From Geobacteraceae bacterium (GTDB lineage: Bacteria; Desulfobacterota; Desulfuromonadia; Geobacterales; Geobacteraceae): a stretch of DNA of 64,000 bases. The position numbers and the translations under genes were made by a program. The notes under the pieces are model-generated. The model ran no database searches. It was not told the origin of the DNA and saw only the letters and a program-made list of their open reading frames with translations. Location of the stretch: positions 124,001-188,000 of the forward strand of contig WSYB01000013.1 in assembly GCA_009773645.1 (NCBI GenBank), read 5' to 3'. Positions 23,986 to 50,733 of the stretch are shown here, one piece after another (the stretch's first letter is position 1; each line of letters begins with the position of its first letter).

Positions 23986-26394
23986 ATGAGAACATTCAAA
24001 GCAGACCTGCACGTACATTCCAGTCATTCCAACAAACCCACCTATTGGGCGTTACGCAAGTTCAGATGCCCGGAGAGTTACACATCACCCGAATTCATCT
24101 ATAAGACGGCGAAGCAGCGGGGAATGGATTATGTGACCATTACGGACCATAACACCATTACCGGCGCTTTGGAGATAGCCCACCTCCCCGGCACCTTCAT
24201 CAGCGTCGAGGTGACCGCCTATTTCCCCGATGACGGGTGCAAGGTGCATGTGGTGGTGCTCAATATCAACGAAGGCATCTACCGGGACTTGATGGGGGTG
24301 CGGAAAAACATCCATGAGCTGGTCGCCTATCTCCGGCAAAACCGGATCGCCCATTTCATCGCCCATCCCCTCTATGCCCAGAACGAGAAACTGACCGCTG
24401 ATCATATCGAGAAGATGCTCCTTCTCTTTACCGTCTTTGAGGTAAAAAACGGTTCCAGGGCAAAACGTTACAACAGGTTCATGGAACATGTGCTTTCGTC
24501 GCTCACTCCGGAGAAGATCGAGTTTCTCTCCGACAAACACGGCATCGAACCGTATGGGGATACGCCCTGGCGCAAGGGGATGGTGGGAGGTTCCGATGAC
24601 CACAGCGGCTTTTTCATCGGCCAGACATGCACCGCTTCCTCCCACGGGGATTCGCCAACCGACTTCATAAGCTCCGTAAAAGAGCGGCACTGTTGGGCGG
24701 AAGGTGAAGATGGCGACGCCCTTACCCTTGCCCACAGCCTTTACGGCATCGGCTACAATTTTTACCGGGAGCGTTTCGGCACCAGAAAGGGACGCTCCAC
24801 CCCCTTTATAAACGCGCTCTTGAGCAGGTTTTTCGATACGGGGGAAGGTCAGCAGTCTTTTCTGGAGCGGATCAAGCTGTTTGTCAAAAAGAACCTCCCA
24901 GAATTCTATGACAGCTACGACGGCAGGACCTTCGAGGAAATCCTGGACAGAGAGGCCAAACGGCTTTTAAATGACGCCGGTTTTATGGCCAGCATCAGCG
25001 CCGAGGGGAGAAACCGGAAGATCTTCGCGGTCACAAGCTATCTGGCCAACAGGATTATCTATATCTACACCGAACGTCTCACCAGAATGAAGTTCGACAG
25101 CGGCTTTTTTGAACTGGTCCACTCGCTCTCCACCATAGGATTGGTTCATCTGCTGGTCTCCCCCTATTATGTGGCGTTTCATCATCAGCATCGCAGCAAG
25201 AACCTTTTGACTGAGCTTGAGGACAGGCTTTACCTTGAAGATGATGGGAAGAGTCAGAAGATCGCCCTTTTTACCGACACCCTCCACGAGATCAACGGGG
25301 TCGCCATCACCATCAAGCGTATGATCCAGACCGCAAAAAACCAGGGCGTTGAACTGGTGGTCATCACCTCCACACCAGCCGAGACTTCTTTCAGCGACGG
25401 GGTGATGAATTTCAAGTGCATCGGCGATTTTTCCCTCCCCGAGTATCCCGAGCTCAGACTCCACTTCCCGCCGATTCTCGACGTAATCGACTACTTCGAG
25501 CGGGAAGGATTCACCCGTATCCATGTCAGCACTCCCGGCACGTTGGGTCTTCTGGCCCTGTTCATTGCAAAGCTGATGGACGTGCCCGTTGCCGCCACCT
25601 ATCACACCGATATTCCCCAGTACGTGAAAAGCCTTACCAACGACGACTTCCTGGAAAATGCCGCCTGGCAATACATGATCTGGTTTTACAATCAGATGGC
25701 GGAAGTTACCGTGCCGTCTGCCAGCACCAGAGCTCAGCTCGTCGAGCACGGCCTCCCCGTCGAAAAGACGAAACCCTTGCCGCGCTGGGTAAACACGGAG
25801 CAGTTTTCACCCGCAAAGCGGGACCCGTCTTTCTGGGGGCAGCACGGAATGGCAGACGGGGTGAAGTTCCTCTATGTGGGACGGGTCTCAAAGGAGAAGA
25901 ATCTGGAGCTCCTGGCGGACGCCTTTGTTGAGGTGGCGGAGACAGGAAACAATTGCTGGCTGGTCATCGTCGGCGACGGGCCGTACCGCCATGAGCTGGA
26001 GCAGAAGCTCAAAGGGTACCCCGTGCTGTTCACCGGCTTTATGGAGGGAGAGGCATTGAGCAGGGTTTACGCCTCTGCCGACGTATTCGTATTCCCCAGC
26101 ACCACCGACACCTTCGGGAATGTGGTGCTTGAGGCCCAGGCGTCGGGCCTGCCGGTTATCGTCTCAGACGAGGGGGGACCTCAAGAGTTGATGATGAACG
26201 GCGAAACCGGCCTGATAACCCGGAGCGGCTCTAAAACCGCACTCTTGGAAGCGATGGCCGGCTTCACCGATGACCCGGGCAAAATCTCCATGATGGGGAG
26301 AAACGCCCGTGTTTTTACCGAAACACGGGCGATTAAATCTGACACCGCTTACAGCACCATTCTTCATACCCCGGCAAAAGCCGTAAATGACTGA
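23986..26394 (+). CDS. PHP-domain phosphoesterase fused to a family 4 glycosyltransferase
   Basis: The 802-residue protein has two enzymes in one chain. Residues 1-260 are a PHP domain with metal-binding motifs DLHVHSSHSN, TITDHNT, HFIAHPLY and GGSDDHSG. After a helical linker, residues about 415-800 form a GT4 glycosyltransferase with the N-terminal strand IALFTDTLHEINGVA, ATYHTDIPQY, FLYVGRVSKEKNLELL, VGDGPYR and the catalytic-site pattern STTDTFGNVVLEAQASGLPV. The GT part resembles those that glycosylate lipids. The PHP part could hydrolyse a phosphoester of the same product. It lies close to a secreted protein gene (next entry), with which it may act. Confidence 0.88.
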   Translation: MRTFKADLHVHSSHSNKPTYWALRKFRCPESYTSPEFIYKTAKQRGMDYVTITDHNTITGALEIAHLPGTFISVEVTAYFPDDGCKVHVVVLNINEGIYRDLMGVRKNIHELVAYLRQNRIAHFIAHPLYAQNEKLTADHIEKMLLLFTVFEVKNGSRAKRYNRFMEHVLSSLTPEKIEFLSDKHGIEPYGDTPWRKGMVGGSDDHSGFFIGQTCTASSHGDSPTDFISSVKERHCWAEGEDGDALTLAHSLYGIGYNFYRERFGTRKGRSTPFINALLSRFFDTGEGQQSFLERIKLFVKKNLPEFYDSYDGRTFEEILDREAKRLLNDAGFMASISAEGRNRKIFAVTSYLANRIIYIYTERLTRMKFDSGFFELVHSLSTIGLVHLLVSPYYVAFHHQHRSKNLLTELEDRLYLEDDGKSQKIALFTDTLHEINGVAITIKRMIQTAKNQGVELVVITSTPAETSFSDGVMNFKCIGDFSLPEYPELRLHFPPILDVIDYFEREGFTRIHVSTPGTLGLLALFIAKLMDVPVAATYHTDIPQYVKSLTNDDFLENAAWQYMIWFYNQMAEVTVPSASTRAQLVEHGLPVEKTKPLPRWVNTEQFSPAKRDPSFWGQHGMADGVKFLYVGRVSKEKNLELLADAFVEVAETGNNCWLVIVGDGPYRHELEQKLKGYPVLFTGFMEGEALSRVYASADVFVFPSTTDTFGNVVLEAQASGLPVIVSDEGGPQELMMNGETGLITRSGSKTALLEAMAGFTDDPGKISMMGRNARVFTETRAIKSDTAYSTILHTPAKAVND

Positions 26395-26409
26395 CGGCTT
26401 CATACCATA

Positions 26410-28620
26410 GTGAGACTTTGTTCCCGCTTATGCGCGGCCCTCTGCCTGGTGGCCGCGCTCCATTGCCTTCCCCCCCGGCACGCGACTGCCGCCGGTGCCC
26501 CGGCACAGCTTCGCTCCATCAGTGTCATTGCTCCCCGATCCGTGCTGGAAAACACCATCTCTCGTGTTACCATCGATGATGTATTGCGGCTTCTGCGACA
26601 GGGTTTTCCTGCAGCCCACGTAGCACTCAACAATCCGGCCGCTCAGGTAAAGATCATCCTGCCCGATCTTGTTAAGACCAGGTCTTCCCTGAATGCGCCT
26701 TTCGGTGTAAGAGGGCGCCTCAATTACCCCAACCATGACTACCAGTGGAGCTCATTCAGCCAAAACAAGAGGACGGTCCTGCAATTACGTACATCCTCGC
26801 CACAAGGGGCGAGTTTTGCCCTCTATGGGCTGTTACAGGAAAAGCTCGGCTATAAATTCCATCACCCGAAACGGACCCTGATTCCTCGCCATACGCGCTG
26901 GCCTCTGCCGGCCCGCTTCCGGTGGGAAGCTGCGCCGCGGTTTGTCAAAAAAGGGTTTCATCTCCATACCCTGCACCCCATGGAACTGACCGAGCAGTTG
27001 CACAACCCTGCGTATCCCGGCGCAGATGTCGACGTGAAAGAGTATATCGACTGGCTGGTGAGAAATCAGCAGAATACGTTTCAGTTCTACCTGTTGAGGG
27101 ATATCGACCGCGCTCGCTGGATAATGCATGCCAGGCAAATAGTGGATTACGCACATAAACGGGGAATACTGGTGGGAGTTGAATTTTCCCTCTCAACCAT
27201 CCAGCAGAAGGCTTTTCAGGCCGTGAAACTCTTGCGTATATTCTCCTCGTACAGGCGCCAGATCGATCGCACCCTGGCCTGGCTGTTCCAGGCCAAATGG
27301 GACTTTGTCACCGTCGATTTCACCATAGGGGAGTATCTTCCGGATATGGGAAAGTTGCGGGCAGGGGTGAAGGATTATCTGATCGGGGAGGTCACCGGGA
27401 GATATCACACGACGCTCATGGAGGCGACTCACGTCATCCGCAGTGCGCAGGAACGTGGCGATGCAACAATGCGATATGTCGCTGCCCCCTTTCCAGCGGC
27501 CGGGCTGCCGGATGGAGCGGCCAATTGCGGCGTTCTGATCCATACCGTCATGTGTTATTCGGTTACGGAACCGAAGGCGCCGGTGTACGGCAACGTCAAC
27601 CAGCGCTTCATGTTGGAACGGGCCAGGGAGGAGAACCTGCGACGGGAGACCTGGTATTGGCCCGAGTCTTCCTACTGGGTCGCCTTTGATAATTCGGTAC
27701 CACTGTTTCTCCTCCCGTATCTCGATGCGAGGTGGAATGACATGCAAACCATGGGGAAACTAGGAGTTGCAGGGCATCTTACCTTCAGTTCAGGCTGGGA
27801 ATGGGGCTATTGGCTCATTGACTGGAGCATAGCCCGCTGGTCATGGGAATATACGGACAATGGCATGATACAGATTACTGAGCCGTCGAGTGTGCTCAAA
27901 GACTTGTTTCCTGAGCGGAGCACCTTGAATTTATGGAGAGAAGCGCTGCGTTTGCAAAATCATTATCTGAAGGAGAAGGAACTGTTGAAATTCATGGCCG
28001 TCCTGGACCCCTTCAGTGAACTTCCCCCACCATTCAATGATCCTTTCCAGCCGCGCCCTGATTTCAGCTATGCATGGCTTTTGCACGATGCTTCCAACGC
28101 TGAAGCCGAGCGGGTGCTCAGGGGACCGGTTGCCGATCTGAACGACTATGCCGAGAAGATGGGTTTGATTGTCGACAGGCTTGCGCAGGAGATAAAGAAC
28201 GACCCGACTGCATTGCAGAGTCTGGCATGGGAACTGAACAGAGGGCTCGAGGTAACAGTCCTGCGCGCACAACACCGTGCTTTGACTCTCAAGGCACTGG
28301 TGGCATTGAGGAAATGCAGGCAAAGATGGGAGCCGATTCCGCAGGAAACGGAAAAACATCTTAAGGAAGCGACACTGGTCCGCCGTCGTGCCCTTGCCCT
28401 GGTAAGGGAGCAGGAACAGATATACCGCTATTCCGTACAGTTGATCGCTCGACAGAGAAAGGACTTCACCGCCTATCATTTCGGCTATCTCTATCCAGTG
28501 AGCAATCTGTTCTTCTGGGAGCGGGAAGAGGAGCAGGTCAGAAACAGAAGGTTTGACGCCTTTTACCGCAAGCTCTGGAATTTCAGAAGGACCATTGGGG
28601 TGGAGAGCCTCCTGTTCTAG
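26410..28620 (+). CDS. Large secreted protein, possibly a glycoside hydrolase-like TIM barrel
   Basis: The 736-residue protein has a signal peptide (MRLCSRLCAALCLVAALHCL, cleavage near ATAAG). Residues about 35-170 look like the small alpha/beta domain found before the barrel in GH20/GH67-type enzymes (ASFALYGLLQEKLGYKFHHP). The middle has TIM-barrel-like strands such as GILVGVEFSLS, WDFVTVDFTIGEYL and HLTFSSGWEWGYWLIDWS. The last 250 residues are helical and basic. No catalytic pair is identified, so enzyme activity is inference. The start is GTG with no good ribosome site, 15 bases after the PHP-GT gene; translation may be coupled. Confidence 0.65.
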   Translation: MRLCSRLCAALCLVAALHCLPPRHATAAGAPAQLRSISVIAPRSVLENTISRVTIDDVLRLLRQGFPAAHVALNNPAAQVKIILPDLVKTRSSLNAPFGVRGRLNYPNHDYQWSSFSQNKRTVLQLRTSSPQGASFALYGLLQEKLGYKFHHPKRTLIPRHTRWPLPARFRWEAAPRFVKKGFHLHTLHPMELTEQLHNPAYPGADVDVKEYIDWLVRNQQNTFQFYLLRDIDRARWIMHARQIVDYAHKRGILVGVEFSLSTIQQKAFQAVKLLRIFSSYRRQIDRTLAWLFQAKWDFVTVDFTIGEYLPDMGKLRAGVKDYLIGEVTGRYHTTLMEATHVIRSAQERGDATMRYVAAPFPAAGLPDGAANCGVLIHTVMCYSVTEPKAPVYGNVNQRFMLERAREENLRRETWYWPESSYWVAFDNSVPLFLLPYLDARWNDMQTMGKLGVAGHLTFSSGWEWGYWLIDWSIARWSWEYTDNGMIQITEPSSVLKDLFPERSTLNLWREALRLQNHYLKEKELLKFMAVLDPFSELPPPFNDPFQPRPDFSYAWLLHDASNAEAERVLRGPVADLNDYAEKMGLIVDRLAQEIKNDPTALQSLAWELNRGLEVTVLRAQHRALTLKALVALRKCRQRWEPIPQETEKHLKEATLVRRRALALVREQEQIYRYSVQLIARQRKDFTAYHFGYLYPVSNLFFWEREEEQVRNRRFDAFYRKLWNFRRTIGVESLLF

Positions 28621-28778: not shown

Positions 28779-29951
28779 TTGCAAGCAGCAGTTGATCAAA
28801 ACGTGTTTTTGGCCGGGGAGCTTATCGTTTCGAGTGATATGGTGCTTCCCCAAACCCTCGTGAGGACGGTCTTCGATCTGTTTTCCCTCAGCCCACAACT
28901 GGAAGCCTTGGCCCTGGTTGACGAGAAAAAACCGGTGGGATTGATTACCAGAACGAAGTTCTTTTTTATCTTGTCCCGCAGATATGGCTACGAACTTTAT
29001 GCAAAGCTCCCAATTATTACCATCATGGATACCCCACCCCTTATCGTTTCTGAAGAGGAAGTTCTTGAAGCGGTTATAGAAAAGGCGCTGGAGCGGCCAC
29101 CTCAGGATATCTATGACGAGATCATTGTAAAGTGCTCTGATGGGACCTATCGGGGCCTCCTGTCGGTAAAACAGCTGATAATTCAGCAAAGCAACGCCCT
29201 GACGCGGAGCGTTCTGCTGAAGGAGATGGCTACGGCGCGTGCGCAGGAACTCGAAAGGATCAATCAGGTTAAGTCGCAGTTTCTTGCCAACGTCACCCAT
29301 GAACTCCGTTCACCGGTGAATGCAATAGTCGGGCTGGCTGAATTGCTGAAGATGGCGGCGGACACCGGGTCGATAGAACAGATACAGGAACGCCTCTCCT
29401 TCATGATGTCCACAGCGACGAATCTCAGGGCGGTCATCACCAACATTCTGGACTTGTCGAAGATCGAGGCGGGAAAGATGGAAGTGGTGCACCAAGTGGT
29501 CGATGTGGTGTCACTGTTGTCTGAAGTCGCTGAGACAGCCCGCATTCTCTTAGGCGATAAGCCGGTCACTGTTCGCCTCACTATACCAGCCGAGCCCGTC
29601 ATGATCACGACTGATCCGATCAAACTGCGGCAGATCGTTACCAACCTGACCAGCAATGCCGCAAAATTCACGGATGAGGGCACCATCGACATCTGTCTCT
29701 CCATCGGCGTTGGGAGTCTGGAGATCGAGATCAGCGACACCGGTATCGGCATTAAGGAAGAGGATCTGGATCTTGTTTTTACCGCCTTTGGGCAGGTCGA
29801 GGACGCCACCACCAAGTTCCATGAAGGCACGGGACTCGGGTTGACGATCAGCAGGAACCTCGCCAGGCTTATCGGCGGCGCTATCTCCGTCACAAGCACA
29901 TACGGTAAAGGCACGAAATTCAGCGTTTGCATTCCACTGCAAAATCCATAG
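28779..29951 (+). CDS. Soluble sensor histidine kinase with N-terminal CBS pair
   Basis: The 390-residue protein lacks membrane segments. Residues about 15-135 look like paired CBS domains (ALALVDEKKPVGLITRTKFF and CSDGTYRGLLSVKQLI). A short coiled coil leads to the HisKA domain with His174 in FLANVTHELRSPV, then a HATPase domain with an N box (NLTSNAAKFTDEG), G1 (EISDTGIGI), F box and G2 (EGTGLGLTIS). CBS pairs bind adenine nucleotides, so it may sense energy state. The start is TTG after GGGGGG. A CheY-like gene follows within 90 bases and is the likely partner. Confidence 0.88.
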   Translation: MQAAVDQNVFLAGELIVSSDMVLPQTLVRTVFDLFSLSPQLEALALVDEKKPVGLITRTKFFFILSRRYGYELYAKLPIITIMDTPPLIVSEEEVLEAVIEKALERPPQDIYDEIIVKCSDGTYRGLLSVKQLIIQQSNALTRSVLLKEMATARAQELERINQVKSQFLANVTHELRSPVNAIVGLAELLKMAADTGSIEQIQERLSFMMSTATNLRAVITNILDLSKIEAGKMEVVHQVVDVVSLLSEVAETARILLGDKPVTVRLTIPAEPVMITTDPIKLRQIVTNLTSNAAKFTDEGTIDICLSIGVGSLEIEISDTGIGIKEEDLDLVFTAFGQVEDATTKFHEGTGLGLTISRNLARLIGGAISVTSTYGKGTKFSVCIPLQNP

Positions 29952-30037: not shown

Positions 30038-30424
30038 ATGCAAGACAAAAAGAAAGTATTGATTATCGATGACGAGGAAATGCATCTTTACACAGCGAAA
30101 AAGCTGCTGGAAAGCGCACACATTGAAGTACTCACCCATAGGGGCTCTTTCGGCGCGACGAACAGCGTGAAGAACAGCCTGCCCGACCTGGTCTTGCTCG
30201 ACATCAATATGCCTGCGCTTTCAGGAGACAACCTCGTTGCCCTGATAAAACCTTTTTGCATGGAGATGCAAATCCCCATACTGTTTTACTCATCCAATGA
30301 TGAAGGCAACCTGCAAGGGCTCGCGGAAACTCATGGTGTTCAGGGGTATATCTGTAAAGGGGATATCGCTGCGCTTCGCAACACAGTCGACGAACATATA
30401 AAAGTCGAAACCGGCAACTGCTGA
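30038..30424 (+). CDS. CheY-like response regulator
   Basis: The 128-residue protein is a lone receiver domain: VLIIDDEE with acidic residues at 11-12, the phosphoacceptor Asp55 in VLLDINMPALSG, the switch residue in LFYSSND and a conserved lysine in YICKGD. No output domain is present. AAAGGAGTCACTC precedes the ATG. It lies directly after the CBS-histidine kinase gene and probably receives phosphate from it, passing it to an unlinked target or acting by protein contact. Confidence 0.9.
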   Translation: MQDKKKVLIIDDEEMHLYTAKKLLESAHIEVLTHRGSFGATNSVKNSLPDLVLLDINMPALSGDNLVALIKPFCMEMQIPILFYSSNDEGNLQGLAETHGVQGYICKGDIAALRNTVDEHIKVETGNC

Positions 30425-30697: not shown

Positions 30698-31750
30698 CTA
30701 AACCTTGTCCCTGTGGACGTGGAACGTCATCATTGCGCCCGTTACCGTGCTCCGGCCGGTATAGAGAAAGATGACAAGCCAGATGGATTGCAGAAACAGA
30801 AGCATCGCGGGATGCCAGAGGGACCTGATCCCGGTTGCGATGTCCGGAGCGAGCACCGATCCGGACGGAGCAAAAAGTATAACGCCGCACACATAAGGGA
30901 TTGCCAGGAGGCACATCACCTGATAAGCGGAAAATAGACCTTCGCCCCGGTAATCGGCCCGCAGCGTCTCGGACAGAAACCGCCATCCCTGGGTGACAAT
31001 CGTAGCCAGGATAAATGCTTCGGCATACCGGGCGTGCATGAAGAGCAATGTCGATATTAGGCCGGTTGCTACATAGAGAAGCGCGGTAATTGCCTGCACC
31101 GGCAGGACCTTTTCCCCTTCCATGCCGCTTGCATAGGCGATCTTCTTGGTGTGACCGGAAAAAACGAAGCAGCGGCCGGTAAAAATCCGCCGCAGCCAGG
31201 AAGGGGCTTCAGCCAGCTGTTTTCCATAGCAGCAGCCGAAGCTGATGCATGCCAGACGCCCCAGCCCCTCGCCGAACGAATAAGCGATGGTGAAAGCGGC
31301 AAGCGCAGCCATGGGGTGGACATGGAAACCCATAGTCGCTCCCACGGTGCGATTTACGCAGAGCACGACCCATGGGGCGGCGATAATCCCCACAAAAACT
31401 GCGCCGCCAACGGTGAAGGTCTGCGACTTTTTCTCAACGATCCTGGCTACTAGACGGGAAGCAGGAATACAGAGGATGAAAAGTGTGATTGTCATTGCCG
31501 CAATACCCGGCAGCGGAGTTCTGATGGCGCCCAGGAGAATGAAGAGCATTACCACTGCGACGGCGTAGGCATTGGCGGTAAGAAGGCCGTACCAGGTCAG
31601 GTTGACCCCCTGCCAGCGGCCGGAACCGTCTCTGATGGTGGGGAGCGAGGCAAATATCTGCCAACGCTCGGAAGGCAGGGTTTTGAATCCCCACAGGAGG
31701 TAGATGGAGGTGAGAATAGCGAGGAGCACAAGGAAGACAGTGTTGATCAT
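30698..31750 (-). CDS. Lgt-family (prolipoprotein diacylglyceryl transferase-like) membrane protein
   Basis: The 350-residue protein has about seven to eight membrane segments and the motif FGEGLGRLACISFGCCYGK, which matches the phospholipid-binding signature of Lgt (GRxGNFxNGxxxG type) but with cysteines in place of the usual NG. It also has the HVHPMAALAAF segment typical of Lgt-like proteins. The essential Lgt residues are only partly present, so it may transfer a lipid to another acceptor. Two genes further upstream (minus strand) encode a phosphatidylserine decarboxylase homologue and a large unknown protein, suggesting a phospholipid-linked function. Confidence 0.65.
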   Translation of the reverse strand: MINTVFLVLLAILTSIYLLWGFKTLPSERWQIFASLPTIRDGSGRWQGVNLTWYGLLTANAYAVAVVMLFILLGAIRTPLPGIAAMTITLFILCIPASRLVARIVEKKSQTFTVGGAVFVGIIAAPWVVLCVNRTVGATMGFHVHPMAALAAFTIAYSFGEGLGRLACISFGCCYGKQLAEAPSWLRRIFTGRCFVFSGHTKKIAYASGMEGEKVLPVQAITALLYVATGLISTLLFMHARYAEAFILATIVTQGWRFLSETLRADYRGEGLFSAYQVMCLLAIPYVCGVILFAPSGSVLAPDIATGIRSLWHPAMLLFLQSIWLVIFLYTGRSTVTGAMMTFHVHRDKV

Positions 31751-31817: not shown

Positions 31818-32825
31818 CTACAAGCGGGCTGCAATCCTGGAGCGGACCTTGACGTCCGTTTCCACCAGAGGCCTGCCGAATCCCTGGGAAAAGCGGCTTT
31901 CGGCATTCAGGTTAAACATGTTGTTGACCAGATCGTCGGCAAAAGAGATGCGCCCCTTCTGGAAGATCAGGACGTCGGTGCTGCTGCCGGGGCGGTAAAG
32001 ACTTTTGGGCGCCCCCTTTTTCAGAAACATGCCGCGCTCGACCGGCCGGGGATAGCTGTAACGTTCTTCGCTGTAGCGCTGGACTATGTCGCCGATCATC
32101 AGGGCAACCACCTCGATCATGGCGACCAGACCGATGCCGCTGCCGTTTTGGACGTCCGTGTTGATGATGGTGACGACCCGTTTGTTCTTTGAATACGGGG
32201 TGGCTATCTGGACGACCGCTCCCGGGTTGCATGAATGGAAGCCGCCGGGGATTTGGTAGAAGTCCACCACCTTCCCCGCGACCGGTGTGTGGTTATAGTG
32301 GTACTTGTCCGGGGTCAGCCGGCAGACGGCAAAGTCCCCCCCGCGAAACGACCTGAGCCACCCTCTTTTGTCACGTCCCAGGAGTTCTTCGAAGTCGAAG
32401 AACTTTTCCTTGAGAAAGAGGGCGGAACTCTCGCGGAAAGAGCCTACCAGCAACCTGGCGTCTGCCGGGCTGACAATAGCCCCGGGATCGTCCGGCATGG
32501 GGCGGCACTCCCAGTAGCGGATCTTTCGCTCGAAGACCTTCCTGGGTGTGTCGAAGAACACCGGGCTTTCCTGGCACTCGCCGAGATCGACCCCGCATTC
32601 CGCCAGAAACCGCCTGTTTCCCGTAAATGCTGCGGCAAAGGGGGCGTCGAAATTGACGAAGCCGAGGAGGCTCGAGGCTTGGGCGGAGGTAAAGAGGCGG
32701 AAGAGGATCGGGGCGGTTTCCCTCACTTCGTTGTAAAGGAGTCTGATGAACCGGTCGCCGTAAAGCTTTTCCGTACGGATCTCGCCGCTGTCACGCTCGA
32801 TGTATTGGTGCCGGATCGTTTGCAT
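31818..32825 (-). CDS. Phosphatidylserine decarboxylase-family protein
   Basis: The 335-residue protein fits the PSD family. It has the conserved FFDFEELLG and AVCRLTPDKYHYNHTPVAG (canonical RL-x-P-x-D-YH-x-x-H-x-P-x-x-G), and near the C-terminus VERGMFLKK then YRPGSSTDVLIF, where the GSS would self-cleave to give the pyruvoyl cofactor. The spacing between MFLKK and GSS is unusual: canonical enzymes read G-x-F-x-x-GS with only two or three residues, while about ten lie between here, so self-processing should be checked. The start at 32825 overlaps the end of the upstream gene by 35 bases. Confidence 0.8.
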   Translation of the reverse strand: MQTIRHQYIERDSGEIRTEKLYGDRFIRLLYNEVRETAPILFRLFTSAQASSLLGFVNFDAPFAAAFTGNRRFLAECGVDLGECQESPVFFDTPRKVFERKIRYWECRPMPDDPGAIVSPADARLLVGSFRESSALFLKEKFFDFEELLGRDKRGWLRSFRGGDFAVCRLTPDKYHYNHTPVAGKVVDFYQIPGGFHSCNPGAVVQIATPYSKNKRVVTIINTDVQNGSGIGLVAMIEVVALMIGDIVQRYSEERYSYPRPVERGMFLKKGAPKSLYRPGSSTDVLIFQKGRISFADDLVNNMFNLNAESRFSQGFGRPLVETDVKVRSRIAARL

Positions 32826-35232
32826 AATCTCTGGTTTTCTCAAGTAGTGTATCTGTCTGACAAGTATCGTGGTCGATGGTGAGGAGGAGCAGGTTGATAA
32901 GCTTCCGTAATGTCTGTGTCTGTGCCCGTTCGTCCAATACGTCTCTTCTGACCGCCTGGAGGAATTCCGAAGCGCCTTTCCCTTGCAGGACAAAACGAAA
33001 AGCCGCTCTGGCGAAACCATCGGCGCCAGCCTCGTCCAGGTCGATCCTCAGGAAGTCTTCTTCCATAAAACGGAGTGCCTCGTCCAGGTGACGCCGCCGC
33101 AGTGTACCGCGATAATATTTTTCGGCACCGCTGTTGAACTCCCGTGCGTTAAGTCCCATAGGGGTTGCGGCGTTCATGTCATCGAGAATCCCGCGGGTCA
33201 ATTTCCCTGCCGTCGAGTGCTTTTCAGGATGCTCCAGGCGTAACATCAGGTCTGCCACCGTTCCCCTGAGATTCAGCGTCTCTATCAGGTCAGCGGCGTC
33301 TTCCAGCAAAACCTGCACAAGGGCCTTGCGGTACTCAAGATTTTGGACTCGCAGGTAGCCGGGATACCTGTGGCTCGGACGAACCTGCCCGGTCCTCATG
33401 ATAATTTTTTTAAGGAACTGATTACTGGTGTTTTTACGCACGTAAAACGTGGGGATGCCGATGGCCGCACCGAAGAATATCTGCCGCCGCTCGCTCTCCA
33501 CGTATGGGTCGTCGGGAATATGAGCGTGGAACAGCTTACCCTCGGCCATGTATTTGAAGGCCAAGGCTGTAATCAGTGTCTGCAAGTCGGCGGCCCCTCC
33601 CATATCATCTTCCAGGCTTTCAAACAGGCTGTAATGGCGCCCCTCGAAACCGGAAAAGCCCATTTTGCGAAATTCGCGAAGCTTATAGAGAAGGTAAAGG
33701 GACATCTGGTTGTCGAATACCCCCATATCTGCCAGGTCTTTCCTCAATCTGTCGTCGTTGCCCGGTTTGCCGTCCAGGGCAGGGCTGCGATCGGTAGAGA
33801 GGAGGCAGACAAGGTAATCGATCAAACGGAAGTCCGGCACAAAATCCCCCTTCTGTCGAAAAAAGCCGCTTACCAGACTGTCAAACCATTCCGGTCCGAA
33901 CGGGGTGAGGGGGCGGCCGAACAGGGATATCTGCGCCTTCTTCTTCCAGCGGCGCCAGATCATGCGAAGATGGGTGTAATCCAGTTCATGGGCAAGGAAG
34001 CCGAGAGCCCGTTCCGGATGGAAGTCGGTGTAAGCGAGCCGGTAGGGGGCTGCGCTGTAACTTCCCACAAAAAGCGGGAGGAAATGCTCCGCCATCTTGA
34101 TTGTCAAGTCACCCAGACATTTTTCGTGCGCTTGAGTATAACCGGAGGCAGGATCTGCGAGGCTCTGCGTCAATTTTCGGCTACCGATGCTTATATGGGT
34201 GCCATTGTTGGCGAGGCTTATATTGGAGACATTGGGAAGTACCACCAGGTTGTTGACGATAATCCCCGCCTCCCGCAGCTTGGCTACGGCGTTAAGCTGG
34301 CTGCGTGAAAGGACTTGGTGGCAGAGGTGCATATAACGGTATTTATCTTCTCCCTGATCCCATCCTGAAAGACAGGGGCTCATGAACAATTCCCGGTAGA
34401 AGGCATCGGAGATATGGCTGTTCAGCTCCTTTTGACGTACCGGTGGATGAGGGGCAAAATAGACTATGGCTTCCTGACCGTTATCCCGGAGGCCGAAACT
34501 CTTGTTAGCGTACATTACCAGGAGCTGCGTCAAGAGGAAACGTTTGGATGTTTCCCGTGCAATTGACCTTCCCATGCCGCTTTCAGGTCGGAGAGGAACC
34601 ACGTGAAACGAGAAGGTTTCCGGCGAGGTGTTGTCGCTTAGAAAGTGATTCATCAACCTCTCCCCGGTCCGCCGGACGGGAGCCGGGAGGTTGTCCTGCG
34701 ATCCCATGACGTCGGCCAGGGCCAGTTTGATGAGGTAGCTTATGGGGATTCGGAGGCATTCCCCTTTATCCCCGTCGTGTATAACGAACCGTTGGACATC
34801 GTTGCGCATCCCTTTTGAAGGGTTGTTTTTGTCTGCGAGGAGGTCGAGATCGAATACCCGTTTGGCAAAGGAGGATAAGACTGATATGGGGAAACGGACC
34901 CAGCTGTTTTCCCAGATGTTTCCCGGGTTGTTGCTGAGAAACCGTTCCAGGTCGGTGATCAGATGTTTCGGTGTCTCTCCTGCGGCTGCCCTTTTCAGGA
35001 TATTGGCAAAATAGTTGGATTGTCCGATGGTTTTGGGGAGATCCACAGAATCCCTTCCTCCCGCAACTACCGCCTGTAACTCTGTTTCTGAGCCGCAGGT
35101 CGTGTCGTGCAGGGAAAAAGGAAGAGAGGCGCAGAGAGCGCCAGGGGATGAGAATGAGACGCCAATCCTTCCCAGGAGCCTTTTAAGAGATTCAGGGTTT
35201 TCTAAAGAAGAAGTCAATTCGATTATCTTCAC
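32791..35232 (-). CDS. Large uncharacterised protein coupled to a PSD-family gene
   Basis: The 813-residue protein has no signal peptide or membrane segment and is not recognised. It reads as a soluble alpha/beta protein; visible stretches include FSFHVVPLRPESGMGRSIAR, GLRDNGQEAIVYFAPHPPVR and IVNNLVVLPNVSNISLANNG. Its C-terminus is helical with several charged segments. The downstream PSD-family gene starts inside its last 12 codons, so the two products are probably made together, and a role in lipid or lipid-head-group chemistry is a context guess only. It starts next to a 311-bp upstream gap that should hold its promoter. Confidence 0.7.
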   Translation of the reverse strand: MKIIELTSSLENPESLKRLLGRIGVSFSSPGALCASLPFSLHDTTCGSETELQAVVAGGRDSVDLPKTIGQSNYFANILKRAAAGETPKHLITDLERFLSNNPGNIWENSWVRFPISVLSSFAKRVFDLDLLADKNNPSKGMRNDVQRFVIHDGDKGECLRIPISYLIKLALADVMGSQDNLPAPVRRTGERLMNHFLSDNTSPETFSFHVVPLRPESGMGRSIARETSKRFLLTQLLVMYANKSFGLRDNGQEAIVYFAPHPPVRQKELNSHISDAFYRELFMSPCLSGWDQGEDKYRYMHLCHQVLSRSQLNAVAKLREAGIIVNNLVVLPNVSNISLANNGTHISIGSRKLTQSLADPASGYTQAHEKCLGDLTIKMAEHFLPLFVGSYSAAPYRLAYTDFHPERALGFLAHELDYTHLRMIWRRWKKKAQISLFGRPLTPFGPEWFDSLVSGFFRQKGDFVPDFRLIDYLVCLLSTDRSPALDGKPGNDDRLRKDLADMGVFDNQMSLYLLYKLREFRKMGFSGFEGRHYSLFESLEDDMGGAADLQTLITALAFKYMAEGKLFHAHIPDDPYVESERRQIFFGAAIGIPTFYVRKNTSNQFLKKIIMRTGQVRPSHRYPGYLRVQNLEYRKALVQVLLEDAADLIETLNLRGTVADLMLRLEHPEKHSTAGKLTRGILDDMNAATPMGLNAREFNSGAEKYYRGTLRRRHLDEALRFMEEDFLRIDLDEAGADGFARAAFRFVLQGKGASEFLQAVRRDVLDERAQTQTLRKLINLLLLTIDHDTCQTDTLLEKTRDYANDPAPIHRA

Positions 35233-35543
35233 CGCAGGCTTCCTTTAATAGCTTACGTGAATGATAATACGGGAATATTGTTAAGTATATGTGGCGGTCA
35301 TGTAAATCATTTGTTAAAGATGCGCAGTAAAACCTTGGCTGTTCGGGTTTTCGCTGAAACCCCGGTGGGAGCGGCGTAAATTCTCATGAAGAGCAATTTT
35401 GGCCGTATCAATTCCTGATCTTCCGGGGGTGGAAGGATGCTCGTAACATAATCTTTACATTCCAAAACTTGACATGGACTGCCGTGAAGGATTAAGGATA
35501 ACAGGTCTATTTTGCCCAATCCGACCATCCGTCAGGAGATATC
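35233..35543. other. Divergent intergenic region
   Basis: The 311-bp gap separates the large minus-strand gene from a plus-strand secreted protein gene and should hold both promoters. It is AT-rich near 35260-35310. A TTGACA-like site (ACTTGACATGG near 35466) precedes the plus-strand gene. A half-match to the local PhoB box (CGTAACATAATCTTTACA near 35446) is too weak to call. Nothing else was seen. Confidence 0.35.
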
Positions 35544-41332: not shown

Positions 41333-43006
41333 TTAATCATCAAGCCGGGCGACGGCAAAATCCCCCTCATGATTAACGATTGCCCATGCGGTTTTTGTGA
41401 AGGGATCGACACCGTATGTGCCCAGCCCATAGCCCGGTTGCCAGGAACCTTTGACAAACTTGCCGGTGCCGCCGAAATTCTTCTCCACGGCGTTGACCCA
41501 GTTGCCGTCGGCATCTTTTGTGGCAAGGCGGTAACCGCCGTTTCCGCGGTGCCGGCCATGGGATCTCTCGTCGTCATAGGTCATCGAGAGGGTGTAAATG
41601 TCGCTCTCTTTGGTTTCGGCTGCATTCGGCAGAAGACCTGTAAGGTCGAGGCCGCTGCCCGGATTTTCCCACAGGCTCAGGTTGTCAGCCATCCCCCAAA
41701 GACTGAGGACCTTGCTTGCGGCGTTGTCCCGCTCCCGGGGAGCGGACCAGCCGGTATTCACGGTTTTTGCCAGGGGGCGAGCGAGGTAGTCGGTTTCAGT
41801 GTTGCCGTTCGTTCCGTTGAGAATTTTGGCTGTCGTGCCCTGGAAGGTGTCCTCCACACTGGTGTAAGACTCGCCATGGGCCACCTGGAACTGCTTGCCG
41901 TTGAGGCTGTAACCGAAGGTCTCCCGCAGATGGAAAACAAAACCGGCGGGAGAGGCGAGGAGGTCGATGTCGCCGTACTCGGAGCCGTGGCTCGACGAGT
42001 AGAAATCCACGGTCACCCGGGGGCCGTCAACGGTGAAGATGTAGTAGCCGATGCTGAACAGCTCCTGCTGGAGCGGCGTCTCCCGCCCATCATCACCGGT
42101 TCTCGGAATGTAGAATTTGTAGCTGTTTGAAGAGCAGATGATCTGACCGGTACTGGACAGGCCGTCAGAGCTCTTGACGATGGAGCGGTGGTGCATATGG
42201 TCATGGCCGCCAATCTGGTAGCGGACGCCGTTGGCGCAGAGACTCCTGATGAATTCATCCCGGGGAACGGCATTGGCAGTTAGATCTGCACCGAAGAGGA
42301 CGTCCTTGTGATTTTGTCCGATCAGGTTCTTGTGTGAAAAAACGAACGCATGGCTGTCGGAAGGCCTGGACGAAACCATCGAATCGATCCACTCCACCTG
42401 ATCGACGGCATTGTTGTTGGTACTGCCGTTGTATTTGCTGCCATCGGTCCTGGTAAACTGGTCGATCAGGATGCAGCGGACATTGTCGTAATCGAAAGAA
42501 TAACTCAGGCCTTTGAGCGTTTCAAAAGGGCTGGCGAAGTTCGTGGCGCCGTAAGCGTTGGGACCGGCACCTTGCGTCTGGGGGAACAGACCCGGAAATT
42601 CCAGGGCCGCAGTCTGGCTGCCTTCATGATTGCCGCGGAGCGGAAAGAATCCGATGCCTCTATCGTAGAGCGCCTGGGCTGCGGCGGCCCGTGTCGGCAA
42701 GGTGCGAACGCCGTAAACACTTTCCACATCAACCAGGTCGCCGACTTGTATGGCGAACTTGACGTCGTGATGGATGTACTGCTGGTTCAACGCATTGATG
42801 ATCGAGACCGCACATGAAGCGGGGTTTTCCCCGTTGTTGGGATAAGCTGCCTTCCACTGGGTATCCGCCATGACCCCGAATTTCCAGGCGGTGCCTGAAG
42901 CCAGGGCTCTCCGCGGGGTTAACAGCGGAAAATGCAATGCTACGGCCAAGCCTGCCAGCCCGGCACCACTGACCTTCATGAAATCTCTTCTGTTCATGCT
43001 CTTCAT
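41333..43006 (-). CDS. Tat-exported metallophosphoesterase
   Basis: The 557-residue protein has a Tat signal (MNRRDFMKVSGAGLAGLAVA, RR-x-F-x-K type), then a calcineurin-like phosphoesterase core with FGVMADTQ, FAIQVGDLVD, PLRGNHEGS, VFSHKN and a late GGHDHMHH motif supplying the metal ligands. The last 250 residues are beta-rich and unassigned. The first ATG at 43006 follows AAGGAGGAAGAA. Such enzymes are periplasmic phosphatases or nucleotidases. It follows the SAP-domain gene by 80 bases on the same strand and could be part of the same operon, which has a candidate PhoB box. Confidence 0.87.
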   Translation of the reverse strand: MKSMNRRDFMKVSGAGLAGLAVALHFPLLTPRRALASGTAWKFGVMADTQWKAAYPNNGENPASCAVSIINALNQQYIHHDVKFAIQVGDLVDVESVYGVRTLPTRAAAAQALYDRGIGFFPLRGNHEGSQTAALEFPGLFPQTQGAGPNAYGATNFASPFETLKGLSYSFDYDNVRCILIDQFTRTDGSKYNGSTNNNAVDQVEWIDSMVSSRPSDSHAFVFSHKNLIGQNHKDVLFGADLTANAVPRDEFIRSLCANGVRYQIGGHDHMHHRSIVKSSDGLSSTGQIICSSNSYKFYIPRTGDDGRETPLQQELFSIGYYIFTVDGPRVTVDFYSSSHGSEYGDIDLLASPAGFVFHLRETFGYSLNGKQFQVAHGESYTSVEDTFQGTTAKILNGTNGNTETDYLARPLAKTVNTGWSAPRERDNAASKVLSLWGMADNLSLWENPGSGLDLTGLLPNAAETKESDIYTLSMTYDDERSHGRHRGNGGYRLATKDADGNWVNAVEKNFGGTGKFVKGSWQPGYGLGTYGVDPFTKTAWAIVNHEGDFAVARLDD

Positions 43007-43085
43007 TTCTTCCTCCTTATCCAGGATCAAAATAGTGTTACACGAATCTCCAGAGCTCCGCCCCAATGGCACACACACAAGAAGG

Positions 43086-43283: not shown

Positions 43284-44894
43284 TCAGTGTGCTGCTGAGC
43301 CTATTTGTTCTTCCGTCAGATTGACGAACCGGACCAGGCTTCTCACCATTTCCCCGTCCACTGACGGGTCGATATGGGGAATCTTGCTCTGTCCGCCGAG
43401 TTTTCCTCTTACTTCCTTCGACCATCGGTAAATCGAATCTTCCCCTACCATTACCACCAATGGCTCCTTAATTCTTCCCTGGCTGCGGAAGGTGGCATAG
43501 TCGGCGTTCATGGTCATGAGGCTTCTGTCAAGATGAACGGCCAGTTCAGCAGTATGCCGGCTTCCACCCTTTGCGGCGAGGACCCACAAATGACGCCTTT
43601 CGCTTATTTCCGGTCCGACGATGAACTCTTTTATTTCGACGCCGTCAATGCGGTTCAATTTGGCAACCGCTTCTTCCACCTCACTCTGGGTGACTTTTTC
43701 CTCAAAACGGTCGAGGAACTTGTCCCGGCCGGTGAATTCGATAAACAGGGGGGAAAGGGATGTGAAGCGAATGGTGTCGCCGATGTGGTAGCGCCAGAGC
43801 CCCGCGCAGGTGGAGAGGATGATGGCGTAACGCCTGCCCGTTTCCACCCCTTCCAGGGGCACTGTTTCTGCATCGGGGGCCGGAATCCCACGTTCATCCA
43901 GCTTCTCGAACGGAACAAACTCGAAATAAACGCCGTAGTAAGGGGCCAGCCGCATATACTCTTCACCGAACAGCTGGAAGGCCATGAACGCCTCAGAGGA
44001 GGGAAGCACCTCAATGAAGTTGGGAGCCTGCTTCGGGAACAGCTCGGCGAATTCCTTGGAGTACGGTTTGATGCTGGTCCCGCCGTGGATGATCAGTTCC
44101 AGGTTCGGCAGGAGTTCGCGGAGCGGTTTTTTACCCAGTTCCGCACACCGTTTCAGGAGGAGGATGATCCACGGAGGGACGCCGGAGATGCCGCGAATAT
44201 TGCCGTCCGTAAGGAGGAGTGCGGCCAGCGCTTCGAGCTTATCGTCCCAGGGGAGAGCGGATATCGCAGCCTTTGGAGCGATAAAGGGTTTCAGGTAGGG
44301 AGGGGGGTAACGGAGAGTAATGGCACTCATGTCACCGCTTTTGACCCCGTCACCCAGGTCTGAAAGGGAAGTATTCCCCGCCATGTAGAGGAGTTTTCCT
44401 CTAAACAGGCGGCTTTTGCGGTTTCTGTCCAGGTAACAGGCGGCAAGGTCCAGGGCCGCCCGCTTGTTTGCCTGAAACATTTTCCGGGAAAAAGGGATGT
44501 ACTTGGTCGGCGCCGTGGTGCCGGAAGTCTCGCAGAAGAAGGGGATTTTCCCCGGCCAGGTGACATCTTCCAGGCAGAGGCGCTTCATCTCTTCCCCTTT
44601 CTGGAGACCGGCGCTGAAGTACTCTTTCCAGAAATCGCCGTAGGTCCTGATCGGGACCTGGCGCCGGTAAAATCGATGGGCCTGGTCAAACGGAAGGCCG
44701 GTGAGATCGGTCAGGCCATGGTCTTTGCCGAAGCGGGTGGCAGCCCCCTGCATGAGCAGCCGGGTAAAGATGTCACGTTGACTGGCAAAGGGGTCACGAC
44801 TTTCAAAGTTCCTCGCCATGAAAGATGCACCGGTTTTCAGCATCAGGTCGAGGGGGGAAGCGGTCAGATTACGGAGAGTTGACGAGTTTCCCAT
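43284..44894 (-). CDS. GH3-family acyl-adenylating ligase
   Basis: The 536-residue protein matches the GH3 family, named from plant auxin-responsive genes, which links carboxylic acids to amino acids or other amines through an acyl-AMP. It has the nucleotide motif FFCETSGTTAPTKYIPFS, a middle with IIHGGTSIKPYSKEF and the conserved VLPSSEAFMAFQ, YYGVYFEFVPFE and LWRYHIGDTIRFTS blocks, and a small C-terminal domain. The length is normal for bacterial members. Its ATG overlaps the TGA of the upstream hydrolase gene by one base, so the two are co-translated. The acid and acceptor are unknown. Confidence 0.87.
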   Translation of the reverse strand: MGNSSTLRNLTASPLDLMLKTGASFMARNFESRDPFASQRDIFTRLLMQGAATRFGKDHGLTDLTGLPFDQAHRFYRRQVPIRTYGDFWKEYFSAGLQKGEEMKRLCLEDVTWPGKIPFFCETSGTTAPTKYIPFSRKMFQANKRAALDLAACYLDRNRKSRLFRGKLLYMAGNTSLSDLGDGVKSGDMSAITLRYPPPYLKPFIAPKAAISALPWDDKLEALAALLLTDGNIRGISGVPPWIILLLKRCAELGKKPLRELLPNLELIIHGGTSIKPYSKEFAELFPKQAPNFIEVLPSSEAFMAFQLFGEEYMRLAPYYGVYFEFVPFEKLDERGIPAPDAETVPLEGVETGRRYAIILSTCAGLWRYHIGDTIRFTSLSPLFIEFTGRDKFLDRFEEKVTQSEVEEAVAKLNRIDGVEIKEFIVGPEISERRHLWVLAAKGGSRHTAELAVHLDRSLMTMNADYATFRSQGRIKEPLVVMVGEDSIYRWSKEVRGKLGGQSKIPHIDPSVDGEMVRSLVRFVNLTEEQIGSAAH

Positions 44895-45979
44895 CAGACC
44901 ACCGCGAAGAGGGCCGGTTGCCGGAGCTTGTCGTACCATGCCTCAATCAGGGGATTATAGCAGTGGTGGTGGAAGATCAGCGACGCATGGACCACAGCGT
45001 CATTCTTGACGGGGGAAATCACATGTTTCACCTTGCCGCGCGGGAAGAGTGCGGTGCGGATGTCGGGATTTTTCAGCGCCGCCAGGGTAGGTGAAGCGGA
45101 GACGAGAAGGTTTTCTTCCATTTCTGCAAGGAGGGCCAATGCCGGACCGGAAAAGATCGGTGCATTGCCGGTGGGAGAAGGGAAGTCCTTCAGAGCCAGA
45201 ACCCTCTGATACCCTCCGACTGCGGAGGTTTTTTCCACCACTTCCATGATCTTCTTCCTGATGGAGAGGTGTCTGCTGGTAAGCACCCGGTTTTCCGCTC
45301 CCGCTTCAAACAGGCTCAGGAAGCAGCGCCTGGCCCTCTCGATCTGGCGGTTGACATCTTGCCCGTTCTCCGCATGGGCCTTGAGGATCCTTCTCAGGTT
45401 ACTCTCCAGCATCCTGACCCCGCCGGTTTTCTCCCCTTCAGGCCTGACCAGGTCTTCGGTGCACAGCACGGGGCTTGCCATCACCACTCCCCGGATATCG
45501 AGGCGATCATTAACCGCCGTTTCCCGGAGGAACTGGGCGATCAGCCCGCAGCCAAAGCTGATGCCGAAAAGGACCGGCTTTTTCCCGCGGCGGTTTATAT
45601 CTTCGATAAGATCCGCCAGCTGGGCGAAAAACATCCCAATGGAAAAACCGTTTCTGGGGTAGTTCATGTAGTAGATACTGCCGTAGTTCCTGAGAAGGGG
45701 GCGCTGAAATTCGGTTACTTCGGTGGCGTCGGGGACAAATCCGGCGATGATGATGGTCGGGATGTCGCCTGCCCCCTTTTCCTTGAAGATTTGGTTTCTG
45801 ACCGCATGGAGACTGGTCACCCGATCTTTGAGCAGGAATTCGCGCCGTCTCTTGCGGGGGGTAAAGGGCTTTATCGTCATCTGGCGGATAAAACCGGATG
45901 CGGCGGTGGCTACAGTGACGAGGGCGGGGTGATTACGCACGACGTTTTGCACAAACGGCATTACAGTAACGTTTTTCAT
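44894..45979 (-). CDS. Alpha/beta-hydrolase-like protein heading a GH3-SAP operon
   Basis: The 361-residue protein has the alpha/beta-hydrolase layout with a nucleophile elbow LFGISFGCGLIAQF (G-x-S-x-G), an oxyanion region IIIAGFVPDATEV and a helical cap with charged helices. A late catalytic histidine may be the one in AVVHASLIFHHHC. A long basic N-terminal region (residues 1-70) could bind membrane. The GH3 gene begins in its last codon, and a candidate PhoB box lies about 40-60 bases upstream, so transcription may rise under phosphate starvation. The hydrolase and ligase pair suggests removal and re-attachment of acyl groups, which is inference. Confidence 0.7.
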   Translation of the reverse strand: MKNVTVMPFVQNVVRNHPALVTVATAASGFIRQMTIKPFTPRKRRREFLLKDRVTSLHAVRNQIFKEKGAGDIPTIIIAGFVPDATEVTEFQRPLLRNYGSIYYMNYPRNGFSIGMFFAQLADLIEDINRRGKKPVLFGISFGCGLIAQFLRETAVNDRLDIRGVVMASPVLCTEDLVRPEGEKTGGVRMLESNLRRILKAHAENGQDVNRQIERARRCFLSLFEAGAENRVLTSRHLSIRKKIMEVVEKTSAVGGYQRVLALKDFPSPTGNAPIFSGPALALLAEMEENLLVSASPTLAALKNPDIRTALFPRGKVKHVISPVKNDAVVHASLIFHHHCYNPLIEAWYDKLRQPALFAVV

Positions 45980-46086: not shown

Positions 46087-46776
46087 TTACTTTTCGTCCG
46101 ACGTGGAAGGGATGGTATGCCGTATATCCTTCCCTTTCACCATAAAGATAACCATCTCCGCCACGTTGGTAGCATGGTCTGCGATCCGCTCCAGGTATTT
46201 TGAAATGTAGTTCAGCCTCAGGGAGCGGGTTATGGTCCCCGGGTCCTCCATCATGAACGTCAGGAGCTCCCGCTGTATCTGAACATTCAAGTCGTCGACA
46301 AACTGGTCATCCTTGCAGACTTTCATGGCCAGTTTCTCGTCGCCGCGGACAAAGGCATCCAGCGCCTCCTTCACCATGACTGATGTCCAATTTGCCATTC
46401 TGGGGAGATCAATATAAGGCTTGAGGATTGGCTCTTCGTTGAGTTCCTTGGCACGATTCGCGATATTCACGCACTGGTCACCGATCCGCTCCAGATCGGT
46501 TACAATTTTCAGTGCCAGGGTTAGAAAACGCAAGTCACGGCCTGCGGGCTGGCGCCGTGCGAGGACCTGGATACATTTTTCGTCAATCTCCATTTCCATC
46601 TGATTGATCCCAGGGTCTGAGGCGATGGTCCGGTCGGCCAGTTCAGAATTTCTCTCCACCAGCGCCTTCATGGAGTTCGAGATCATCAACTCGACCTTCC
46701 CCCCCATTTCCAGAAGCTTCTCCCGGATATCGTTCAGTTCCTCATCGTACAGTTTGCTGAAGTGCTCTCTTTCCAT
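46087..46776 (-). CDS. phoU: Phosphate transport regulator PhoU
   Basis: The 229-residue protein is all-helical with two related PhoU halves, each with a metal-binding pattern of the type E/D-x-x-x-D (DEKCIQVLARRQPAGRDLRF in the first, ERIADHATNVAEMVIFMVKG in the second). The length is standard. PhoU restrains PhoR when phosphate is ample and limits Pst uptake. It follows pstB by 109 bases with a hairpin between. GAGGTAGAA precedes the ATG. Confidence 0.95.
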   Translation of the reverse strand: MEREHFSKLYDEELNDIREKLLEMGGKVELMISNSMKALVERNSELADRTIASDPGINQMEMEIDEKCIQVLARRQPAGRDLRFLTLALKIVTDLERIGDQCVNIANRAKELNEEPILKPYIDLPRMANWTSVMVKEALDAFVRGDEKLAMKVCKDDQFVDDLNVQIQRELLTFMMEDPGTITRSLRLNYISKYLERIADHATNVAEMVIFMVKGKDIRHTIPSTSDEK

Positions 46777-46789
46777 TTCTACCTCGTGA

Positions 46790-46865
46790 TTCGGGAAGCG
46801 TGAACCGGGAAGTGGAAACCGTTTTTATCAGTCACGGATCCCGGTTCCCGAATTCCGGTTCCCGA
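46790..46865. repeat. Imperfect inverted repeat between pstB and phoU
   Basis: TTCGGGAA-GCGTGAA-CCGGGAA on one side faces TTCCCGAA-TTCC-GGTTCCCG on the other. It can form a stem without a T run and could lower phoU expression relative to pstB or stabilise the upstream mRNA. Confidence 0.4.
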
Positions 46866-46885
46866 AAAGTGATTGCCTGATCCGT

Positions 46886-47644
46886 TTACCCGAACCTGCC
46901 GGTAATGTAATCTTCGGTCTGTTTTTTGTCCGGGGTGGTGAAAATTTTCTTGGTCTCTCCGAATTCGATCAATTCGCCCAGGTAGAAAAAGGCTGTGTAG
47001 TCGGATATGCGGGCAGCCTGCTGCATGTTGTGGGTGACTATGACGATGGTGTACTTTTCTTTCAACCCCTCGATCAGTTCCTCTATCTTCAGAGTTGATA
47101 GCGGGTCGAGGGCCGAGGCCGGCTCGTCCATGAGGATCACCTCGGGTTTTACCGCGATGGTCCTGGCGATGCAAAGCCGCTGCTGCTGCCCGCCGGAGAG
47201 CTCCATGGAGTTCGCTTTCAGACGATCCTTGACTTCATCCCAGAGAGCGACCCTTTTCAGGCTTGATTCCACAAGTTCATCGGCCTCGTCTTTGTTGATC
47301 CTGCCGTTCAGCTTGTAACCTGCGATCACATTGTCGTAGACGGACATGGCGGGGAAGGGATTCGGTTTCTGGAACACCATCCCGACCAGCCGCCGAATGG
47401 AGACCGAGTCAATAGTGCGTTCATAGATGTTGATTCCATCGAGCAGAATCCTGCCGGTTACTTTGGCAGTGGGTACCAGATCATGCATCCTGTTGATGCT
47501 GCGCAAAACTGTTGATTTCCCGCAGCCGGACGGGCCGATGATTGCGGTAACGCTGTTTTCACCGAAATCGATTGTAGTCCCCTTGACCGCATGATTCTTA
47601 TCGAAATGAACATTCAGATCTTCAAGTTTTACTTTTGTTTTCAT
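46886..47644 (-). CDS. pstB: Phosphate ABC transporter ATP-binding protein PstB
   Basis: The 252-residue protein is a complete ABC ATPase: Walker [13 protein letters not shown]-loop FQKPNPFPA, signature [14 protein letters not shown], Walker [14 protein letters not shown] and the switch histidine in IVTHNMQQ. The DPxST-type PstB ending YITGRFG is present. The start at 47644 is chosen for GAGGCTAGTG upstream. It energises phosphate import together with PstA and PstC. Confidence 0.96.
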
Positions 47645-47684
47645 CACTAGCCTCATATTACACACTTCCAAATTCCGGGCGTTG

Positions 47685-48524: not shown

Positions 48525-48526
48525 TA

Positions 48527-49483: not shown

Positions 49484-49527
49484 TGGCACCTCCGTGCACT
49501 AAGATTCTGCACGCAACCGCGAACGGC

Positions 49528-49575: not shown

Positions 49576-49595
49576 GGATAATGCCAGTTAATTAG

Positions 49596-50627: not shown

Positions 50628-50655
50628 CTGTTTCCTCCTTTTCATTTTTTTGTGA

Positions 50656-50690: not shown

Positions 50691-50733
50691 GTTCGGAAAT
50701 ATTCGGTGAATTCGTGAACAGTATTGTTGCAGG

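Follow-up and report, generated by a model that had tools for sequence, protein, structure and literature searches.

Do a large protein outside all sequence families, a second phosphatidylserine decarboxylase (PSD) and a relative of Lgt, encoded side by side on one strand, serve a common purpose, and if so, which? The question is raised by a 64,000-nucleotide stretch of a Geobacteraceae bacterium (contig WSYB01000013.1, assembly GCA_009773645.1, positions 124,001 to 188,000; hereafter, the window), in which an 813-residue open reading frame (ORF; the big gene, encoding the big protein) overlaps the start of a gene for a PSD-family proenzyme, which is followed after a gap of 67 bp by a gene for an Lgt-like membrane protein (Table 1). 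An earlier reading made from the letters alone (the sequence-only reading) had described the 813-residue ORF, its 35-bp overlap and the Lgt-like gene next downstream, all of which were found again, and had proposed a small lipid-modification operon. The start of the PSD gene was placed at the ATG at 32825, which is backed by homologues; the start in the ORF list (33020) is an upstream extension. We put at about one half the probability that these three genes (the trio) encode one enzyme set for an amino-acid- or amine-derived membrane lipid, which would most likely be made when phosphate is scarce.

Conservation of the three-gene unit

When 297 Desulfobacterota genomes (the phylum sample) were searched for the big gene and the respective PSD and Lgt subtypes, the big gene was found in 31 (plus one short fragment), and each of the two subtypes in 32. 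All 31 genomes with the big gene also carried both subtypes (Fisher p 3e-41), and one extra genome (G172) had the PSD and Lgt subtypes without the big gene. A search of genome contigs with the big gene gave 290 matching stretches, from which 80 loci of named genomes were taken (the locus sample). The ORF caller detected the big gene in 76 of these; the PSD gene lay directly behind it in 67 and was followed by the Lgt-like gene in 63, with outer neighbors varying between loci. Because the three genes recur jointly in dozens of genera, their association is not due to chance. The trio is a real conserved unit, present in 11% of the genomes (about a tenth of the sampled Desulfobacterota), and not housekeeping. 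With the gene neighborhood thus conserved, the operon proposed from the letters is well supported as a conserved and probably lipid-related one.

The distribution of the trio was patchy, even inside a family. Carriers include Trichlorobacter thiogenes, Citrifermentans bremense, Geomonas, Desulforhabdus, and Desulfatibacillum alkenivorans (L114); matches to the big gene were also present on single contigs of metagenome-assembled genomes labeled Brocadia, Nitrospinae, and Acidobacteria, for which mis-binning is possible. A literature search (subscription literature and preprints being outside its scope) retrieved no paper joining the trio genes. The parts fall into known superfamilies, and their likely role into a known type of response; what appears to be new is the family of the ligase, the modified Lgt and the gene combination.

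Predicted activities of the three proteins

The sequence-only reading had recognized no domain in the big protein, which holds for sequence libraries: there was no Pfam or NCBIfam match at E ≤ 1, a PDB sequence search gave nothing useful, and similarity to a known member family (PF04107, GshA) was found neither by hmmscan of 37 homologues, which had no consistent family match at E ≤ 10, nor by hhalign of the family against GCS2 and GshA, which gave zero signal. It does not hold for the predicted structure. The AlphaFold2 model (alignment of 69 homologues; predicted local distance difference test [pLDDT] 87.8, predicted template-modeling score 0.91) matched, in a structure comparison (VIA), GshF (Z 16.6) and E. 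coli glutamate-cysteine ligase (GCL; Z 16.4) over 413-419 residues, then YbdK (Z 14.7), PafA/Dop (Z ∼14; PafA 14.0) and glutamine synthetase (GS) III (Z 6.8), and the first matches outside the GS/GCL superfamily reached only Z 2.9. Foldseek alone ranked GCL-type chains top (best E 0.02), and a viral library returned nothing.

Two motifs of the superfamily were discernible in the big protein. The first, G47-S-E49-T-E51-L-Q53, lies on the first long strand of the model and corresponds to the metal-binding GxExE strand (G25-L-E27-R-E29 in E. coli GshA, GIELEIQL in YbdK-like proteins); E49 and E51 were kept in 68/68 homologues reaching that point. The second, F-E530-G-R532 on a late strand, corresponds to the ExR motif (E328-V-R330 in GshA, E-x-R-x-x-D in GCS2), with E530 and R532 kept in all 69 homologues. 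Because the confidently predicted GCL/GS fold coincides with the GxExE and ExR motifs, the big protein is, judging from its model, a new carboxylate-amine-ligase-like family of the glutamate-cysteine ligase/glutamine synthetase superfamily, and an active ATP-dependent ligase would be the natural inference. With GshA/GshF, YbdK and PafA/Dop, it shares the fold over 330-420 residues (Z 14-16.6), the invariant GxExE strand and ExR, but it has no detectable sequence similarity to them, is longer (813 versus 370-520 residues), has Ser in place of the Asp after ExR, and is nearly always encoded beside the PSD and Lgt-like genes. It contains no hydrophobic segment (maximum KD19 1.36).

The PSD variant clearly belongs to its family (PF02666, 132.8 bits; cut-off 22), and its best PDB matches were true phosphatidylserine decarboxylases; the profile also matches PsiD-type L-tryptophan decarboxylases. 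The NCBIfam equivalog cut-offs for housekeeping PSDs were not reached. Like other members, it has the SPAD Asp, the YHxxH His pair and the self-cleavage Ser region, but that region reads RPGSST, compared with KLGST in E. coli Psd, and is one residue longer before the downstream Phe. The replacement of GST by GSS and the unusual spacing, both pointed out from the sequence, are therefore genuine, and GSS is a fixed trait: G280, S281, and S282 were invariant in 61/61 homologues, D122 likewise (61/61), and H176 and H179 in 60/60. Because the GSS residues are invariant and D122, H176, and H179 are kept, the variant looks competent for self-cleavage. Members of the subtype scored at least 478 bits, compared with at most 129 bits for the next PSDs of the phylum sample, which makes it a clean subfamily, far from the housekeeping PSDs. 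It is also supernumerary: a canonical second PSD is encoded on another contig of the same genome, and 31 of the 32 carrier genomes in the phylum sample had at least two PSDs.

For the Lgt-like protein, the predicted structure (pLDDT 92.7) matched E. coli Lgt (5azb) alone, with Z 13.1 compared with 5.2 for the next entry. PF01790 was recovered in the genome search (35.1 bits; cut-off 24.9), hmmscan of the single protein listed zero families, and the match to NCBIfam PRK00052.3-4 (1.6e-6) stayed under the cut-off. In E. coli Lgt, R143, R239, E243, and R246 form the catalytic center, E151 touches the phosphatidylglycerol (PG) head group, and the indispensable H103 has been proposed as the residue that holds the lipobox peptide (PMC4728403). 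Equivalents of the four catalytic residues (R165, R257, E261, and R264) and of G154 are present at equal spacing and invariant in 53/53 Lgt-like sequences, but the His of the HGGL motif (H103) is gone, and N146 and E151 are replaced by Cys; the protein has three invariant Cys. Elsewhere, the same genome encodes a canonical Lgt (271 bits). With residues of the acceptor site and for PG recognition gone, the Lgt-like enzyme is unlikely to serve lipoproteins as Lgt does. Its core for handling diacylglyceryl is kept and the sites for acceptor and donor head group are altered, an indication of a diacylglyceryl transferase that uses a different acceptor.

Phosphate context and a candidate lipid pathway

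What the sequence-only reading missed is the phosphate-starvation context, although a complete pho/pst cluster lies in the same window, on the same strand as the trio and ∼11 kb off. Across the locus sample, the Pho genes at trio loci encode PstS, PstC, PstA, PstB, PhoU, PhoB, PhoR, Ppk or Pit. Counting seven specific families, and with 18-kb windows from carrier genomes as controls, at least one Pho gene was present within 8 kb in 28/80 trio loci versus 2/40 control windows (p 1.5e-4). A pst-phoU-phoR cluster encloses or directly adjoins the trio in L071 and L093. With a Pho-box motif trained on nearby Pho genes only (the starting half-site matrix being modeled on E. coli Pho boxes), scores upstream of the big gene were higher than those of other genes (median 8.0 versus 5.6, p 3e-6). 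Within the window, phoB (17.5) and pstS (16.7) scored well above the tandem in the intergenic region between the big gene and its divergent neighbor (10.4-10.5).

A sulfate reducer under phosphate limitation was shown to swap more than 80-90% of its phospholipids for phosphorus-free glycolipids and ornithine lipids (PMC5193443). The trio resembles the systems for such lipid replacement (PlcP/Agt glycolipids, BtaAB betaine lipids, OlsBA/OlsF ornithine lipids) in its Pho-gene neighborhood and its companion genes for GT4 and phospholipase C-like proteins, but its enzymes are none of the known synthases. BtaA-type DUF3419 is absent from the genome of the window, and the PF13444 GNATs present there are not specific for OlsB.

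From these data we infer a shared pathway. The big protein would activate a carboxylate with ATP as acyl phosphate and couple it to an amine, the carboxylate being, if the precedent of the superfamily holds, the one at the gamma position of glutamate. The self-processing PSD variant would decarboxylate a serine- or amino-acid-type head group and thereby supply the amine. The Lgt-like protein could then shift the diacylglyceryl unit from a phospholipid onto a non-lipoprotein acceptor, which would free glycerol phosphate and leave a phosphorus-free or phosphorus-sparing lipid. In its best reading, the trio probably makes an undescribed lipid, which would be of the amide type and come from a pathway linked to, and possibly regulated by, phosphate limitation; product and step order are putative. 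The fully specified version is tentative, and we would sooner doubt than believe it: a complete undescribed route to a phosphorus-free glycerolipid with an amide head group, in which the Lgt-type transferase puts diacylglyceryl on a glutamyl-amine built by the GCL-fold ligase and the second PSD, in phosphate-short anaerobic Desulfobacterota.

Several points weigh against an amine-derived lipid made at phosphate scarcity. PSDs normally use phosphatidylserine, and a phosphorus-containing product is equally easy to draw. About two thirds of the trio loci have no Pho gene inside 8 kb, related loci are not independent in the linkage statistics, and the Pho-box enrichment is modest, with a weak site in the window that faces the divergent gene. 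The fold of the big protein shows only in the structural model and was missed when profiles were compared with GCS2/GshA, and the equivalence to the GCL active site is one of order and motif, not of residue-level superposition. Finally, the carrier D. alkenivorans, when grown on hexadecene, had only phosphatidylethanolamine (PE), PG and cardiolipins as main phospholipids (PMC11150832). Any product of the trio must therefore be minor, non-phospholipid or conditional; an abundant phospholipid made constitutively is ruled out by these data, whereas one under phosphate control is not.

The alternative that survives best, though we consider it unlikely, retains phosphorus: the PSD variant would (re)make PE or an analogue, the ligase would acylate the amine of that lipid, using glutamate or a different amino acid, and the Lgt-like protein would supply or trim the diacylglyceryl part. 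Membership in the PSD family with the D/H/H/S residues kept and the cytosolic type of the big ligase fit this scheme, as does the fact that carriers already make PE with other PSDs, which suggests a special phosphatidylserine-like substrate for the extra one; it leaves unexplained both the frequent Pho-gene neighborhood and the loss of PG-recognition residues in the Lgt-like protein. Also improbable is the lipidation of a small molecule or peptide, in which a PsiD-like PSD would have a free amino acid or a dipeptide as substrate, a gamma-glutamyl amide would come from the big protein, and the Lgt-like protein would place diacylglyceryl on a thiol or amine, so that a lipidated metabolite results instead of a bulk lipid. 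The match of the PSD profile to PsiD-type enzymes, the coupling of Glu to small amines by GCL/YbdK-like ligases and the invariant Cys residues of the Lgt-like protein would agree with this, but neither a recurrent transporter nor a biosynthetic-cluster partner of the trio was found, and true phosphatidylserine decarboxylases are the best PDB matches of the PSD. Considerably more remote is protein modification by a PafA-like big protein that joins a protein or peptide carboxylate to lysine or a lipid amine, with the other two enzymes preparing the lipid anchor: PafA and Dop rank shortly after GCL when folds are compared (Z 14), yet YbdK and GCL match slightly better, and among ORFs longer than 80 residues no recurrent Pup-like small gene was found beside the trio. 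That genes of ordinary PE and lipoprotein synthesis happen to adjoin an unrelated conserved hypothetical one, as the family names alone might suggest, is hardly tenable with canonical PSD and Lgt encoded elsewhere and the trio confined to 11% of genomes, and is already refuted by the joint gain and loss of the three genes. Independently of these schemes, an ether-lipid pathway was checked against the D. alkenivorans lipidome and received zero support.

If the trio does make an amine-derived lipid at phosphate scarcity, it could explain unassigned lipids of anoxic settings. Among sediment bacteria, the anaerobic Desulfobacterota, which reduce metals and sulfate, are a major group, and their membrane chemistry under phosphate limitation has been detailed for few strains only; a sharply co-inherited trio with a new ligase family would offer a direct genetic handle on an undescribed lipid, testable now in the cultured carriers T. 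thiogenes, C. bremense, Geomonas, and D. alkenivorans. The big protein adds a new branch, as modeled, to the GS/GCL superfamily, and in the Lgt-like protein, the Lgt fold seems to have found a use beyond lipoproteins.

Features and neighboring genes

Table 1. Position of the trio, its predicted motifs and context features in the window.
Feature	Positions	Strand	Basis
Big gene, 813 residues	32791-35232	-	ORF, GTG start
PSD-family proenzyme, supernumerary subtype, 335 residues	31818-32825	-	PF02666, E 1.6e-38
Lgt-like membrane protein, 350 residues	30698-31750	-	AlphaFold2 model, structure comparison, PF01790
Overlap of big-gene and PSD reading frames, 35 bp	32791-32825	-	
G47-S-E49-T-E51-L-Q53, counterpart of metal-binding GxExE strand of GCL/YbdK	35074-35094	-	Motif comparison with GCS2 proteins and GshA
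E530-G-R532, counterpart of ExR motif	33637-33645	-	Motif comparison
Predicted self-cleavage site G280-S281-S282-T283	31977-31988	-	Alignment with E. coli Psd and homologues
Changed Lgt signature GEGLGRLACISFGCCYGK (R143 and G154 kept, N146 and E151 to Cys)	31220-31273	-	
Pho-box-like tandem TCGTAACATAATCTTTAC in divergent intergenic region, weak	35441-35458	+	Score 10.4-10.5
Divergent gene, 245 residues, with hydrophobic segment	35544-36281	+	Family in 14 trio loci including the window
PHP-domain and GT4 glycosyltransferase, frequent companion (context)	23986-26394	+	Pfam
Complete phoB-phoR-pstS-pstC-pstA-pstB-phoU cluster, outside the trio (context)	46087-53180	-	

The family of the divergent 245-residue protein is elsewhere often encoded on the same strand, directly upstream of the big gene. 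Three proteins recur as companions of the trio: the PHP and GT4 glycosyltransferase and a phospholipase C-like protein of the Zn-dependent kind, both with lipid-type domains, and a membrane protein with DUF2062. The first of these was present in 14/32 trio genomes versus 36/265 others (p=1e-4); as only 14 of the 32 carriers have it, it was rejected as a fourth core member. In the window, the PHP and GT4 fusion is followed by a gene for a 736-residue protein without a Pfam match (23986-28620, +), and in some carriers (L022, L049, and L050) both genes interrupt the trio, separating the PSD gene from the Lgt-like one. In about nine loci, among them L071, L076, L089, L093, and L103, a gene for a DksA/TraR-like protein with a zinc finger (126-154 residues) either immediately precedes the big gene or lies behind the PSD gene and ahead of the Lgt-like gene.

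The interval from the pho/pst cluster to the trio holds genes for a GH3-family protein of the acyl-acid amido synthetase type (PF03321) and a 361-residue neighbor without a Pfam match (43284-45979, -), homologues of both of which occur in other trio loci, and a gene for a Tat-signal calcineurin-like phosphoesterase (41333-43078, -), probably a phosphatase that is secreted and belongs with this phosphate region. A phage-type (tyrosine) integrase-like protein is encoded just upstream of phoB (53943-55280, -); tRNA genes were not found in the window. Two adjacent, mutually similar LuxR-type-regulator-like proteins are encoded at 61552-63709 (-), and genes for a histidine-kinase-like protein and a single-domain response regulator (30038-30424 and 28779-29951, +) are convergent to the Lgt-like gene.

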